Below, in pieces: positions 27,290 to 33,502 of a stretch of DNA of 34,406 nucleotides. This DNA comes from Deltaproteobacteria bacterium (GTDB taxonomy: Bacteria > Myxococcota > JADLHZ01): assembly GCA_020848545.1 (NCBI GenBank), contig JADLHZ010000150.1:1-34406 (forward strand), in the 5' to 3' direction. The notes under the pieces are model-generated. The model was not told the DNA's origin. It made no database searches and worked only from the letters and a program-made list of their open reading frames with translations. Both the position numbers and the translations under genes were made by a program. How positions within the stretch are numbered: the stretch's first letter is position 1; the number at the start of each line of letters is the position of its first letter.

Positions 27290-27929
27290 CTACCAGCGCG
27301 TGCGAAACTCTTCGGCCCAGCCGAGGAGCGACGTCACCGCCAACCAGTCGCCGCCGTCCATCTGCACGCGCCCAAAGAAGCGTCCGAAGCACACGTGCGC
27401 ATCGAGCGAGACGACGCCAAGCGGGATGCGCACGGCGTTCTGCATGAACGGAGAAAACGCGAGATCGACGCGCTCGGAGCGCAGCGTCCAAGGCTTCAAG
27501 AAGTCCCTGTGATCGTAGGCGAAGTCGATGGTGTCGCCGATCTTGTGGATCTTGCCGGCGACGAAGAGCGCGTTCTCGGTCATGCCGGTGCCGTCGGTCC
27601 ACTTGCCGCCGAACTGGAGCCCCACCGGGTGGACGCCCTGCACGCCGGCGGCGCTCGCCCAGTTCCACGTCGTGCCGTAGGGCCAGAGGCCACGGCCGTA
27701 GTCGAGGCAGGCCCACGCTTGCACGTTCTCCTCGGTGCGCCGCGGCCCGCGAAGCGTGGCGGTCGCGTACAGCGCCGGCTGCTTCGAGGTGTACTGAAAG
27801 CGGCGCTCGCTCCACGGGATCACAGTTGCAGCGGTGCAGCGGCCGCCGCGACCAGCCGACCGCGTCTGGGTTCAAGCGGCCGTCCGGCAAGCACAGGTCG
27901 ACGGCGCTCGTGATCTCACGTTCGCTCAT
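27290..27929 (-). pseudogene. DUF2804 family gene with frame-breaking internal deletion
   Basis: The first 35 residues (from ATG 27929: EITSAVDLCLPDGRLN, then GWSRRPLHRCN) match the N-terminus of DUF2804 proteins. The C-terminal part lies in a different minus-strand frame, 27290-27837: VIPWSERRFQYTSKQ, LDYGRGLWP, LQFGGKWTDGTGMTENALF and LLGWAEEFRTRW are all DUF2804 hallmarks. Intact members are about 330-350 residues; together these parts give only about 210. So roughly 110-140 residues between RPLHRCN and VIPWS are missing, and the junction, near 27830, also shifts the frame. Its ATG overlaps the MMPL gene end by 14 bp, suggesting a former operon member. DUF2804 function is not known. An assembly error is the main alternative. 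Confidence 0.8.
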
Positions 27930-30183
27930 TGGCCCTCGACTGAGGCAAGAAGAAGAGCATCGCCACGAACCACGGCACGGTCGCGAAGATCATCGCGAGC
28001 ACGCCGATCGTCGCGAGCGCGCCGAGGCTCCAGAGGCCGAAGAACTTCGCCACGAGCGCGGCGGCGTAGCCGGAGAAGTTCACCGCCGACGCCGCGAGCA
28101 CTGCTTTGCCCGAGCTCCACGCGAGCTCAGGCAGCGGCTCACCGTGTTGGAAGCGATGATGCATGTGGACCACGTTGTCGATCGCCATCGTCAGCAGGCT
28201 CGGCACGATGGCGAGGTTGATGAAGTTGAGCGGCAGATCGCAAGCGATGATGACGAGCGCGCCAGTGCCGGCGCCGACCGCGAGCGGGAGCATCAGCAGC
28301 GCGACGGCGCGCAGGCGGCGGAGGAGGACCAAGAGCGCGAGCGCGACCGCGACGACCGTGGCCCACGCGATGAACGGACCGTCGCGCTGGATCAGCCGGA
28401 AGATGCGCGCGGCGATCCGGTTTTCGCTGAGCACGCGCACGTCGATGCCGGCCGCCCGCGCTGCGTCGACGTCGGCATCCAGCGCGGCCACGAACGCGTC
28501 GAGGTCGCCGGCGTCGGTGAGCGCTTCGGTCGACTCGATGACGACGAGCGCGCCTTCATGATCGCTTGGCGTGTAGATGCGGGTGAGCCAAACGGGGAGC
28601 GCGGCGAGCAGCGGCGGCGCCGCCGACAACCCGGCGATGAACGCGTCGCGATCCCCGGCGAACGCGCTCTTCGGGACGCGCTTCAGCAAGACGGCGAGGC
28701 GGGCGTGCTGTGCGCGGCGCGCCGGAGTATCGTCGGCGACGAGCGTCGGCAACGATCGCGCGGACGCGATCGCCGAGCCCGGGGCGATCTGTTTCTGAAC
28801 GATCGCCGTCAGCGTGATGGCGTCGTTGGCGCTCGGCACCCACGCGATCGTCGGCATCAGCGTGGTCCCGAGCGCCGCCGCCGCGCGCAGCCCTGCTTGA
28901 TCCGGGTTCTCGGCGCCGTGCAGCGCGTTGAGATCGCGGTCGATGCGCAGGCGACCGCTGAAGGCGAACCCGAGCATCGCGGTCAGCGCGCCGAGCCCGA
29001 GCACCGTGGCCATCGTCCGGCGTCGCAACGGCAGCGCACGCACGGCACGCTCGGCCGTCGCAGGCCGCGGCGGCAAGAGCGAGAGCAACGCTGGCAAGAA
29101 CGCGAAGGTCGAGGCGAAGGTGAGCAAGATGCCGAGCCCGGCGATCACGCCGAACTCGCGAAACGCCTGCAGCTCGCAGCCGATGAGCACGAAGAACGCG
29201 GTGGCGTTCGTCAGGGCGCCGGTGAGCGAGCCCGGCAGCGTCTCGGCGGCCGCGCGCGCGACGTCGGTGGAGCCTTGCTCGCGCCAGCGGAGGTACACGT
29301 GGATCCCAGACTCGACGCCGAGGCCCGCGAGCAGCGCCACGAGGAGGCCCGAGATGATCGTCAAGTGCCCGATCGCCAGCCACGCCGCGCCGAGGCTCAC
29401 GCTGATCCCGACCGCGACCGGCAAGAGCAGCAAGACGCTCGCCCGCACGCTGCGCGTCGCCCACCACAGCGCCAACGCGACGAGCACGGCGGCGACGAGC
29501 GTCATCCGCTGCAGATCGCGTTGGATGCTCTCGACGAACGCGAGGTTGAAGATCATCGGGCCGCCGAGCGTCACCGTCAGCGGCGCGGCGCTCGCCGTCA
29601 GCGAACGCATGCGCGCGATGAAGCTCTGCATGCGCGGGATGCTGTCGGCGACGAAGGCGGGCTTGGCGATGAGGTAGGTCGCGGTCGCGCTCTCGATGAA
29701 GCGCGGCAGCTCGAAGGGCTGGACGGCTGGAGCGCTCGCCGGGGCGGCGCCGTCCAAGGAGAGCGCCGCTTCGACGCCTTGCTCTACGCGCGCGTCGAGC
29801 TCTGCGATCACGCGAGCGAGCGCCCGATCATCGAGGAGCCACGGCGCGAGCTGCGGATCGAGCTCACGCTCGAAGTCGACGTGGGCGATCTCGTGGTCGC
29901 CGGCGATCGCGGTCGCCAACGCACGTCCGCGCGCGATACGGTCATCGCGCGATCCGCCGGCGATCTCGACGATGAGGTAACCCTGCCCGCCGGTCTTCTT
30001 GCTGACGAACGCCAGGTCGCGCACCTCGCCGGCGTCCTGCGGCAAGAGCTCGAAGTAGCTGAGCCGGAGCGCGAGCCGGCTCGCCGCGAGAACGCCGAGC
30101 GCGCAAGAGATGACCATCACGGCCAAAGTGACGCGGCGGTGGCGCAGAAGGAGCGCGATCGCCGCCCGCGCGCGATCGATCAT
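27916..30183 (-). CDS. MMPL/RND-family exporter (HpnN-like)
   Basis: The 755-residue protein has the layout of MMPL lipid exporters: an N-terminal membrane segment, a large extracytoplasmic domain (about 40-210), a run of membrane segments (VAVLVALALWW to FLPALLSLL), a second extracytoplasmic domain, and a final membrane bundle (VVAVALALLVLLRRL to WFVAMLFFLPQ). Such proteins, including hopanoid transporter HpnN, move lipids across or out of the inner membrane. The ATG at 30183 overlaps the methyltransferase stop as ATGA, so methyltransferase and exporter are likely linked, perhaps for a methylated lipid. Substrate is unknown. Confidence 0.8.
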   Translation of the reverse strand: MIDRARAAIALLLRHRRVTLAVMVISCALGVLAASRLALRLSYFELLPQDAGEVRDLAFVSKKTGGQGYLIVEIAGGSRDDRIARGRALATAIAGDHEIAHVDFERELDPQLAPWLLDDRALARVIAELDARVEQGVEAALSLDGAAPASAPAVQPFELPRFIESATATYLIAKPAFVADSIPRMQSFIARMRSLTASAAPLTVTLGGPMIFNLAFVESIQRDLQRMTLVAAVLVALALWWATRSVRASVLLLLPVAVGISVSLGAAWLAIGHLTIISGLLVALLAGLGVESGIHVYLRWREQGSTDVARAAAETLPGSLTGALTNATAFFVLIGCELQAFREFGVIAGLGILLTFASTFAFLPALLSLLPPRPATAERAVRALPLRRRTMATVLGLGALTAMLGFAFSGRLRIDRDLNALHGAENPDQAGLRAAAALGTTLMPTIAWVPSANDAITLTAIVQKQIAPGSAIASARSLPTLVADDTPARRAQHARLAVLLKRVPKSAFAGDRDAFIAGLSAAPPLLAALPVWLTRIYTPSDHEGALVVIESTEALTDAGDLDAFVAALDADVDAARAAGIDVRVLSENRIAARIFRLIQRDGPFIAWATVVAVALALLVLLRRLRAVALLMLPLAVGAGTGALVIIACDLPLNFINLAIVPSLLTMAIDNVVHMHHRFQHGEPLPELAWSSGKAVLAASAVNFSGYAAALVAKFFGLWSLGALATIGVLAMIFATVPWFVAMLFFLPQSRANERT

Positions 30184-31013
30184 CCGCGGCGAAGCTCGAG
30201 CAGCGCGTACTCGGTCCATCCTCTGCGCTCGGACTGCTGCAGCGCCGTGCCGCCGATCATGTTGTCGACGAGGCTCGACGGCCACATGCGCCCGATCGCT
30301 CCGCCGGCGCGCTCGAGCAGCGACAAGAGCGGCGAGGAGTGCAGGCGCAAGTGCGGCGTCAGCACCTCGACGCGCTCGAGGCGAAAGCCCGCCGCTTCGG
30401 CGAGGCGGACGACCTCGTCGCGGGTGAAGAGCGAGTGGAAGTGCCAGCCCTTCGCCAAGCGGGCGAGACACTCCGCGCGCTCGGGCGACGGGGTGCCGGC
30501 GACAAAGTCGTCGCAAAGGAAGAGCGGCGCGCCGCTCGGCAGCACGCGCGCGGCTTCGGCGAAGAACTTCGCGGCGTCGCTCGCGTGCGCGAAGGCTTCG
30601 ATCGCGAACGCGGCGTCGATCGCCGGCAGCGCCCCGAGATCCATGAAGTCGCCGCGGCGAAACGCGCAGCGCTCGGCGAGGCCGCGGGTGCGCGCCGTGG
30701 TCTCGGCGATCGCGATCTGCTTCTCGCTGATGCTGATGCCGAGCGTCTCGACCCGCGCGTGCTCGGCGAGCCAGAAGCTGCTCTCGCCCACGCCGCAGCC
30801 GAGGTCCAAGAGGCGCAGCGGGCGCCGCGCGGGCAGCGCCGACGAAATCCGAGCGTGCACGTAGTGCGCGGCGTCGGCGAGCGTTCGCACGCCCGCGGCC
30901 CACACCGGCCGGTGGATGACGCGCGCGCGGCTCGGATCGATGCGCAGGAACCAGCGCGTGTTGTCATCGTAGTAACGGGCGACGTCGGCGCCGCTCTGCT
31001 CGCTCTGAGTCAT
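30180..31013 (-). CDS. SAM-dependent methyltransferase (lipid/terpenoid type)
   Basis: The 277-residue class I methyltransferase has motif I LLDLGCGVGESSFW (68-81), a preceding region VARYYDDNTRWFLR like small-molecule C- or O-methyltransferases (sterol, tocopherol and geranyl diphosphate C-methyltransferase-like), and FAIEAFAHASDAAKFFAEAARVL. The substrate is not identifiable. It is the first gene of the five-gene minus-strand unit. A TTGACT -35 and TCTGGC -10 (17-bp spacer) lie just before its ATG, whose spacing predicts a leaderless start. Confidence 0.85.
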   Translation of the reverse strand: MTQSEQSGADVARYYDDNTRWFLRIDPSRARVIHRPVWAAGVRTLADAAHYVHARISSALPARRPLRLLDLGCGVGESSFWLAEHARVETLGISISEKQIAIAETTARTRGLAERCAFRRGDFMDLGALPAIDAAFAIEAFAHASDAAKFFAEAARVLPSGAPLFLCDDFVAGTPSPERAECLARLAKGWHFHSLFTRDEVVRLAEAAGFRLERVEVLTPHLRLHSSPLLSLLERAGGAIGRMWPSSLVDNMIGGTALQQSERRGWTEYALLELRRG

Positions 31014-31135: not shown

Positions 31136-32119
31136 ATGGAACGCGCACTGTGGTTTGTGAGACCGGGCGAAGTCGAGCTTCGCCGTGAGCCTGCGGCGAG
31201 CGACGCGCCGCCCGCCGGCGAGCTCGACGCCGTCGGGCTCGCGTCCGGGATCAGTCAGGGCACCGAGCTGCTCCTCTACCGTGGTGAGGGCACCACGCCC
31301 TTCGACCCGTCGCTCGACGCGCCCGGTCAGCCGACCTATCCGCGCCGCTACGGCTACGCGTGGGTCGGTGAAGTGACGCGCGCGGGGGAGGGCGTCTCGA
31401 TCCCGGTCGGCACGCGGATCTTCGCGCTCGCGCCGCACGGTGATCGCCGGCGTTTTCGCTCCGACCAGGTGCGCGTGCTCTCGAAGGGCGTGCCCGTCGC
31501 GCGGGCCACGCTGGCGGCGAACCTCGAGACTGCCGTCACGGCGCTCTGGGACTCCGGCGTCACCCTCGGCGATCGCGTGATCATCTGCGGCGCCGGCATC
31601 GTCGGCCTGCTCGTCACCCGCCTCGCCGTGCGTGCTGGCGCCCAGCATGTCATCGTCATCGAACCGTCGGAGAAACGGCGGCAAGCGGCGCTGGCGATGG
31701 GCGCGAGCTTGGCGCTGCCGCCGGATCACGGCCGTGAGCTCGGCCTCGCCGACGTCGTCTTCGAGATGAGCGGCAAGCCCGAGTGTCTCTCGCGCTGCTT
31801 CGACTACTGCGGCGATCAGGGCCACGTGGTGGTCGTCTCGAACTATGGAAGCCGCGCGGCGCCGGTGATGCTCGGCGGCGTCTTTCATCGCCGGCGCTTG
31901 CGCTTGATCTCGAGCCAAGTCTCGGCGCTGCCGGCGGGGCGACAGCCGCGTTGGGATCACGCGCGGCGCTTCGACGTCGTCCGTTCGTTGCTCACCGACA
32001 CCACGCTCGACGAGCTCATCGAGCCGGCGTTGCCCTTCGCCGCGGCGCCCGAAGTCTACCGGCGGCTCGCAGAGCGCGGCGCTGACGCGTTGCACGTGCT
32101 TTTCCAATATGGAGCCTGA
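31136..32119 (+). CDS. MDR (zinc-type) dehydrogenase-like protein
   Basis: This 327-residue medium-chain dehydrogenase has a nucleotide-binding site VIICGAGIVGLLV (148-160) and the motif ASGISQGTELLL (36-47), which resembles BchC-type proteins rather than classic alcohol dehydrogenases. I see no zinc-ligand cysteine set in the N-terminal half, so it may work without catalytic zinc. It is directly followed, with no gap, by the PTPS-like gene. I picked the ATG at 31136 because conserved sequence begins there; ATGs at 31058 and 31121 would extend it through the promoter region. The substrate is unknown; with its neighbours it could reduce or oxidise a pterin or sugar-linked intermediate. Confidence 0.75.
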   Translation: MERALWFVRPGEVELRREPAASDAPPAGELDAVGLASGISQGTELLLYRGEGTTPFDPSLDAPGQPTYPRRYGYAWVGEVTRAGEGVSIPVGTRIFALAPHGDRRRFRSDQVRVLSKGVPVARATLAANLETAVTALWDSGVTLGDRVIICGAGIVGLLVTRLAVRAGAQHVIVIEPSEKRRQAALAMGASLALPPDHGRELGLADVVFEMSGKPECLSRCFDYCGDQGHVVVVSNYGSRAAPVMLGGVFHRRRLRLISSQVSALPAGRQPRWDHARRFDVVRSLLTDTTLDELIEPALPFAAAPEVYRRLAERGADALHVLFQYGA

Positions 32120-32512
32120 ATGTTCACCCTCGCTGTCAAAGACTTCGTCATGATCGCGCACAGCCTGCGCGGCAGCGAGTTCGGCCCTGCGCAAAACGTG
32201 CACGGCGCCACCTTGGCGACGACCGCGGAGCTGCGCGTCAAGGCGCTCTCGCCGCTCGACATCGTCGTCGACATCGGCCTGTTCAAGAAGGAATTGCGTC
32301 GCGTGCTCGAGCGCATCGACTATCAAAACCTCGACAGCCACGCGGCGTTCCAAAAGCATCGCTCGACCACTGAGCGCATCGCGCAGTTCGTCGCCGATGA
32401 GCTCGCTTCTGTGCTGCTCGGGCTCGGCCTCGATCCCGAGAGCGCGTTGCGCGTCGTCGTCGACGAGTCGCCGGTGGCGTGGGTTGCCTTCGAGCGCCCC
32501 CTCCGTCGCTAG
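32120..32512 (+). CDS. PTPS/QueD-like protein with altered active site
   Basis: The 130-residue protein has the T-fold of 6-pyruvoyl-tetrahydropterin synthase: IAHSLRG (12-18, His14), VHGATL (27-32, His28), LDIVVDIGLFK and the C-terminal DESPVAWVAFE. In QueD and PTPS the zinc is held by three histidines, the last two as HxH in HGHNY; here the second of that pair is Ala30. The usual catalytic cysteine just before HGH is also absent (AQNVHG). So PTPS or QueD chemistry is doubtful. I recall a Streptomyces coelicolor homolog of this sort with a changed active site and unassigned function. Its start directly abuts the dehydrogenase stop, and a glycosyltransferase follows. Confidence 0.75.
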   Translation: MFTLAVKDFVMIAHSLRGSEFGPAQNVHGATLATTAELRVKALSPLDIVVDIGLFKKELRRVLERIDYQNLDSHAAFQKHRSTTERIAQFVADELASVLLGLGLDPESALRVVVDESPVAWVAFERPLRR

Positions 32513-32518
32513 GCTGCC

Positions 32519-33502
32519 ATGCACCTCGCGTGGGTCCTCTACGGCGGCCTCAATCAAGCGACCGGCGGGACCATCTACGATCGCGTGATCGTCGAGGCGT
32601 TGCGTGCGCGCGGGCACACCGTGGCGATCCTCTCGCTGTGCCAGCGCGGTCGGCTCGCGGGCATTCTCGCCGGTGATGCGCTGCGCGCGCGGATCGGCGA
32701 TGTCGATGCGGTGGTCGGCGACGAGCTCTGCTTCCCCGAGATCGCCGCCGCCTTTCCGAGGATCCGGGGTGTGAGGCGCGTGCTGCTCGTCCACCACCTC
32801 ACCTGTTGGGAGCACGAGCGCTCCTTCGGCGACCGAGCCTTCGCGCAGATCCTCGAGCAATGTGCGCTGCGCGCCGCCGATGCCGTCATCGCCACGAGCC
32901 ACACGAGCGCCGAACGCCTGGGCCGTGACCATCGCGTCCGTGCTGCGCACGTGATCCAGCCGGGTGCCGATCGTCTCCCGCGGGCGTCGCGCACGCGGGG
33001 TGATCGCCTGCGCCTGCTCTTCGTCGGCACCTGGACGGAGCGCAAAGGACTGCTCCGGCTCTTGCAGGCGCTGCGCGTCGCTCCCTCCGGCTGGAGCCTC
33101 TCGATCGCCGGCGACGCCGCGCGCGACCCGCGCTACACCGCGAAGGTGCTCGCGATCTTGCGCGAACCGTTCGCGCAGCAGATCGTGGTGCACGGTCGGG
33201 TGGGCGACGCAGCGCTCGCCGAGCTCTATGCCTCGCACGACGTGCTTGTCCTACCGACGAGCTTCGAAGGCTTCGGCATGGTGATCAGCGAAGCGCTCCA
33301 CGCGGGCCTCGAAGTCATCACCACGCGCGCGGGCGCCACCGTCGAAGCGAGCGGCGGGAGTCGACGCGTGATCTTCGCGAGTGATCTGACGGACGCTCTG
33401 CGCGAGCGGCTCGCGCGAAGCGCGCCCGTCGCTGACGAGCCGACGCTCGCGCTGCCCTCTTGGTCCGACGCCGCCGCGCGCTTCGAAGAGGTGCTTCGCT
33501 AG
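32519..33502 (+). CDS. GT4-family glycosyltransferase
   Basis: This 327-residue GT-B enzyme has the N-terminal GLNQATGGTIYDRV acceptor-side region and the donor-side RLLFVGTWTERKG (165-177) and SFEGFGMVISEAL (248-260) with the E-x7-E pair Glu250/Glu258 typical of GT4. It starts six bases after the PTPS-like stop and is likely co-transcribed. With the dehydrogenase and PTPS-like genes it suggests glycosylation of their product. Acceptor and sugar are not predictable. Confidence 0.85.
   Translation: MHLAWVLYGGLNQATGGTIYDRVIVEALRARGHTVAILSLCQRGRLAGILAGDALRARIGDVDAVVGDELCFPEIAAAFPRIRGVRRVLLVHHLTCWEHERSFGDRAFAQILEQCALRAADAVIATSHTSAERLGRDHRVRAAHVIQPGADRLPRASRTRGDRLRLLFVGTWTERKGLLRLLQALRVAPSGWSLSIAGDAARDPRYTAKVLAILREPFAQQIVVHGRVGDAALAELYASHDVLVLPTSFEGFGMVISEALHAGLEVITTRAGATVEASGGSRRVIFASDLTDALRERLARSAPVADEPTLALPSWSDAAARFEEVLR

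Follow-up and report, generated by a model that had tools for sequence, protein, structure and literature searches.

The window analysed here takes up all of contig C150 (34,406 b) in a myxobacterium-like genome of 8 Mb. It carries three genes arranged head to tail that we regard, with about even confidence, as the tailoring core of a conserved pathway, found also in many actinobacteria and proteobacteria of soil, leading from a riboflavin-type precursor to a glycosylated pteridine-like compound. The proposal builds on the observed gene order, gene families, conserved active-site changes and recurrent neighbours, from which we infer all of the reactions, their order and the product. The PTPS-IV family and a solved member of it were already known, while the pathway itself is uncharacterised.

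The gene triad

The first gene (31136..32119, + strand) encodes a 327-aa dehydrogenase of the MDR superfamily, BchC-like and devoid of catalytic zinc ligands, with an ADH_zinc_N domain (PF00107, 5.7e-14). The second (32120..32512, +) encodes a 130-aa protein of the PTPS fold (PF01242, 1.1e-19), and the third (32519..33502, +) a 327-aa family 4 glycosyltransferase (GT4), so classified on the basis of PF13692 (Glyco_trans_1_4, 8.5e-19), PF00534 (1.4e-16) and PF13439 (over cut-off). The first two genes meet at TGA/ATG with a gap of 0, and 6 bp separate the second from the third, in agreement with the contiguity and coordinates given in an earlier note on this DNA. The three ORFs are a real gene set: a chance origin is excluded by the match of the second product to a solved protein (E 2e-25), by its fold match at 1.4 Å to PDB 3d7j and by the recurrence of the gene order across phyla. 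Divergent from the triad, on the - strand, lie genes for a methyltransferase (30180-31013) and an MMPL-family transporter (27916-30174); the former was considered as a cluster methyltransferase and dropped, as it scores only 18 bits against the cluster type. A search of the window for the other genes of the clusters described below found none, so that the triad stands there by itself.

The PTPS-fold protein and its changed active site

By its sequence, the PTPS-fold protein is an intact member of PTPS-IV, a subgroup defined as AGeNNT cluster 62 by the signature FGPAQ, with PF00925 (GTP cyclohydrolase II, GCHII) and PF01872 (RibD-C) in its neighbourhood; the passages of that work concerned with the subgroup give it no function and do not name MDR or GT4 genes as neighbours (PMC5445326). 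The window protein has the signature as F21-G-P-A-Q25, and it recurs in 80 relatives, with Ser for Ala in a single case; both GCHII and RibD-C were recovered as neighbours in our set too. Among solved proteins the best match is to Streptomyces coelicolor SCO6650 (3d7j; 2.3e-25, 45% identity), and an AlphaFold2 model of the window protein (pLDDT 94) is also closest to this structure, followed by PTPS/QueD structures. The two proteins share the same Cys and His losses and, in Streptomyces, the same type of cluster. SCO6650 was reportedly found to contain no zinc and to lack PTPS activity, which agrees with the active-site changes seen throughout the family. The 3d7j crystal structure has been available since 2008, and we found no function assigned to it in the literature; PTPS-IV is likewise absent from the text of a review on pteridine signalling. 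A further observation concerns SCO6652, a gene numbered close to SCO6650, for which a table of a Streptomyces differentiation transcriptome lists the values 4.3 and 4.1 (PMC3610822).

The window protein lacks the catalytic Cys and a complete zinc His triad (CxxxHGH). Compared with the QueD-like protein of the same genome, the active-site Cys is replaced by Ala24, the second His of HGH by Ala30 (HGA) and the catalytic His by Tyr68, whereas His14, His28, Glu85 and Glu116 are retained; the earlier note had correctly read the first two substitutions and missed the third. Among 35 relatives drawn from an even sample of genomes, the Cys position is Ala in all 34 aligned sequences, HGA is present in 33 of the 34, the catalytic His is missing in 35/35 and the pterin-anchor residue Glu116 is kept in 35/35. 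These near-uniform substitutions, together with the retention of Glu116, identify the changes as a fixed family trait, and the description of the protein as degraded was thus mistaken, the subgroup having already been named and a member of it solved. Across PTPS-IV, Glu116 and Glu85 are invariant while the zinc and catalytic residues are gone, and new invariant pocket residues appear: F21-G-P-A-Q25, T31, D51 and N70-L-D72. His9 was rejected as a new catalytic residue, since it is His in 80/80 sequences of the first set (the best 80 of at least 563 matches), but in the even sample 29 sequences have His, 4 Arg and 1 Ser at this position, and the window protein itself has Phe. Separately, single ORFs of 374-454 aa with three successive PTPS/QueD-like matches were observed in gammaproteobacterial genomes that carry PTPS-IV (G099:C400:12187-13149, G100:C157:7243-8202 and G102:C40:6067-7041), each of them a triple-PTPS protein in tandem arrangement.

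It could be the case that PTPS-IV is a non-catalytic T-fold protein, binding or structural, whose role is to supply the MDR or GT4 with a pterin or pyrimidine, leaving the chemistry to these partners. The loss of the zinc site and catalytic triad with retention of the ring-anchoring Glu, as well as the strict linkage to MDR and GT4, would fit such a role, but the invariant new pocket residues suggest a retained active site, and we consider the idea doubtful.

The dehydrogenase and the glycosyltransferase

The zinc ligand set (Cys, His, Cys) of zinc-dependent MDR alcohol dehydrogenases is missing from the window MDR: Ser stands for the first Cys (SGISQGTE) and Tyr for the His of GHE (GYA), and a search for a conserved Cys across 24 relatives found none, bearing out the earlier description of a BchC-like dehydrogenase with no visible zinc ligands. 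The predicted structure (pLDDT 89.7) has the standard MDR fold. BchC, the bacteriochlorophyllide dehydrogenase, is the best NCBIfam match, but the score is far under the cut-off (59.2 vs 291.25 bits), and no bacteriochlorophyll genes besides the BchC-like MDR itself were seen among the recurrent neighbours. In a tree, the window MDR is the sister of that of a Myxococcales MAG (L023), to which it is 56% identical (support 100/100). The two GT4 proteins are 46% identical, and the GT4 gene holds the same position in most relatives. A precedent for glycosylated pterins is offered by CtPGT of Chlorobium tepidum, a pteridine glycosyltransferase that acts on tetrahydrobiopterin (PMC5683033).

Conservation of the triad in other genomes

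When the collection of species genomes was scanned with PTPS-IV, at least 563 stretches gave a match, many of them from Streptomyces. The best 80 of these fall in Actinomycetota, Pseudomonadota, Planctomycetota and one Myxococcales MAG. Because these loci were ranked by how closely they resemble the window, a second sample was drawn evenly from genomes, in which PTPS-IV is carried by 27 of 398 Pseudomonadota (about 7%, counting the centre genome) and by 10 of 296 Actinomycetota. Among the 195 genomes of the window's phylum, a true PTPS-IV was found only in the window's own (171 bits; next best about 64 bits).

Neighbour counts rest on the 26 new Pseudomonadota loci of the even sample. The MDR gene lies directly upstream of PTPS-IV in 26/26, and a GT4 gene is present in 25/26 and directly downstream in 23/26, so that what had been called an unassigned biosynthetic operon is a conserved unit. 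Other genes recurring in these loci encode a methyltransferase (24/26), RibD-C (22/26, missing from 4), a CDP-alcohol transferase (12/26), GCHII (11/26, missing from 15), LPG_synthase_TM (11/26) and a creatininase (6/26). Over the relatives as a whole, the companions of the triad comprise GCHII, a RibD-C reductase, a creatininase-family formamidase candidate, a methyltransferase, a CDP-alcohol phosphotransferase and a sulfatase-fold membrane protein, with mdoH/mdoG in Proteobacteria. The triad with RibA/GCHII and RibD-C nearby was found in both Actinomycetota and Pseudomonadota, which bears out the similar gene neighbours that the earlier note named for actinobacteria and the RibA/GTP cyclohydrolase or RibD that it proposed to look for nearby. 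In the Myxococcales MAG the order is RibD-C-MDR-PTPS-IV-GT4. SCO6650-type clusters of Streptomyces also include genes for GCHII, creatininase, methyltransferase, CDP-alcohol transferase and LPG_TM proteins, unlike the window with its triad alone.

Precursor supply

The recurrence of GCHII, RibD-C and the formamidase candidate with the triad points to an entry from GTP via a riboflavin-type diaminopyrimidine, and not via dihydroneopterin triphosphate. Many cluster GCHIIs lack the conserved Tyr of EGRGIGLxxKxxAY, which is Met in Streptomyces and His in Pseudonocardiaceae/Thermomonosporaceae. In the first set, a creatininase-family gene accompanies the Tyr-less GCHII in 54/54 loci vs 0/10 loci of the Tyr type; in the later set it is present in 5/5 Met-type loci, but also in four proteobacterial Tyr-type loci. 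Since these four break the converse and the loss of Tyr is a single change in the GCHII tree, a two-way rule was rejected and the association kept as one-way support; for the same reasons, the cluster creatininase may do something else. In that tree, which has several long branches and must be read with caution, the cluster GCHIIs come from several lineages and not from one clade, which suggests that GCHII was recruited to the clusters more than once. The S. coelicolor GCHII SCO6655 is said to release the formylamino intermediate. A GCHII plus formamidase step is chemically precedented by BrbF of Sinorhizobium meliloti, a creatininase-family protein proven to deformylate the GCHII intermediate AFRPP (PMC9478397). 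The cluster RibD-C best matches TIGR01508, the archaeal 2,5-diamino-6-ribosylamino-pyrimidinone reductase, which works ahead of deamination, at 130 bits, under the cut-off, and the cluster creatininase is also under the curated cut-off of its named equivalog. A creatininase-family deformylase with an archaeal-type reductase, as in BrbF and archaeal ArfB/ArfC, would give the proposed entry compound; those proteins serve riboflavin, whereas the cluster copies score under the equivalog cut-offs.

In the window's genome, the GCHII and RibD-C families are found at places unlinked to the triad. That no supply gene adjoins it there counts against the proposal, as do the 4 and 15 of 26 Pseudomonadota loci without RibD-C and GCHII, respectively, and the scores of RibD-C and creatininase under the equivalog cut-offs. 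GCHII domains are present in stand-alone form on contigs C72 and C139 and in an atypical form on C32; RibD-C is present on C33 (the canonical RibD) and C73 (1757-2500), and there is one creatininase, on C6. The C73 RibD-C shares 43% identity with the reductase that adjoins the triad in the Myxococcales MAG, as against 32% with the canonical RibD of its own genome, and is on this account probably the partner of the window triad; its neighbours look unrelated. The stand-alone GCHIIs were rejected as linked partners, their neighbours looking unrelated from the translations. The C32 copy (L113, G000:C32:25209-25670), a domain of the GCHII family within an open frame of 449 aa, has no EGRGIG motif, which may explain why two stand-alone GCHIIs have been retained in the genome.

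Envelope-related neighbours

An MdoH-type GT2 gene is found within 10 kb in 12/26 of the even-sample Pseudomonadota loci, mdoG in 6/26 (L124, L126-L128, L130 and L131) and either of them in 14/26; elsewhere an mdoH-type gene adjoins the MDR gene. MdoH and MdoG make osmoregulated periplasmic glucans. Because each gene is present in one to a few copies per 3-9 Mb genome, the chance of finding one in a 20-kb stretch should be well under 5%, by a rough estimate. Sulfatase-fold membrane proteins, CDP-alcohol transferases and LPG_TM proteins also recur in both phyla, and together these genes give a hint that the product is envelope-linked. A search of the window's genome for MdoG found none. In the literature searched, these glucans and pterin are mentioned together by a single paper, on the gut microbiota of pigs.

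The same neighbours would be expected if the triad were an envelope-glycan module made of a GT4 and an oxidoreductase, in which the PTPS-like protein is incidental. The MdoH and MdoG frequencies, and the sulfatase-fold and CDP-alcohol transferase genes of many loci, speak for it, but PTPS-IV is the fixed centre of the clusters and it is with PTPS-IV that RibD-C and GCHII recur, so we judge this explanation quite unlikely.

An unpublished assignment quoted in the literature links PTPS-IV to archaeal F420 (PMC5041015), and an early riboflavin-type intermediate would be common to both pathways. That PTPS-IV and its neighbours make or repair this deazaflavin cofactor is nevertheless very improbable and largely refuted for these bacteria, since CofH, a mark of hosts that make Fo, is missing in most hosts: of 14 PTPS-IV genomes, 9 have no CofH over the cut-off, among them most of the proteobacterial ones, the planctomycete one and the window's own, where the search gave no match at all. 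Finally, a regular enzyme of queuosine (QueD) or biopterin (PTPS-II) synthesis that happens to lie next to unrelated genes would have the same fold, but is rejected on the active site (CxxxHGH is missing), as the earlier note had argued, and on the model scores (34.7 bits on the QueD model vs a cut-off of 89.25), a separate QueD being encoded on C85 (107.6 bits, over cut-off) and Que genes being absent from the recurrent neighbours; we give it hardly any credence.

A proposed pathway

In the tailoring pathway that we favour, GTP would be converted to 2,5-diamino-6-ribosylamino-4(3H)-pyrimidinone 5'-phosphate by GCHII, or by a Tyr-less GCHII plus the creatininase-family formamidase, and the archaeal-type RibD-C reductase would then yield the ribitylamino compound. 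PTPS-IV would hold the pyrimidine or pterin ring via Glu116 for a metal-independent ring closure, side-chain isomerisation or cleavage. A side-chain hydroxyl or carbonyl would next be oxidised or reduced by the zinc-less BchC-like MDR, and GT4 would add a sugar, a methyltransferase being often at hand for an optional methylation. In many hosts, the CDP-alcohol phosphotransferase, LPG_synthase_TM-like, sulfatase-fold and MdoH/MdoG proteins suggest that the product may reach the envelope. In the window's genome, the lone triad would draw its substrate from the unlinked GCHII and RibD-C genes. The glycosylated pterin-like metabolite first suggested for this locus thus stays plausible, given a GT4 beside a PTPS fold with a pterin-anchor Glu, although the neighbours point to a riboflavin-type diaminopyrimidine as its source.

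A bolder version, which we hold to be unlikely, is that the clusters make a glycosylated pteridine or ribityl-diaminopyrimidine that is anchored in the envelope and belongs to a new class. PTPS-IV would close a riboflavin precursor that has not been deaminated, GT4 would add a sugar and the CDP-alcohol phosphotransferase would join the compound to a lipid, after which the sulfatase-fold (LtaS/OpgB-like) or MdoG/MdoH machinery would pass it to glycans of the envelope.

Now that its fixed partners are named (MDR, GT4, RibD-C, GCHII, the formamidase candidate and the envelope genes), a protein that was an orphan can be placed in a pathway that is open to testing and whose entry compound is predicted. 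If the proposal is right, the riboflavin pathway would have a second outlet, and genera that produce antibiotics may contain an envelope metabolite that is new.
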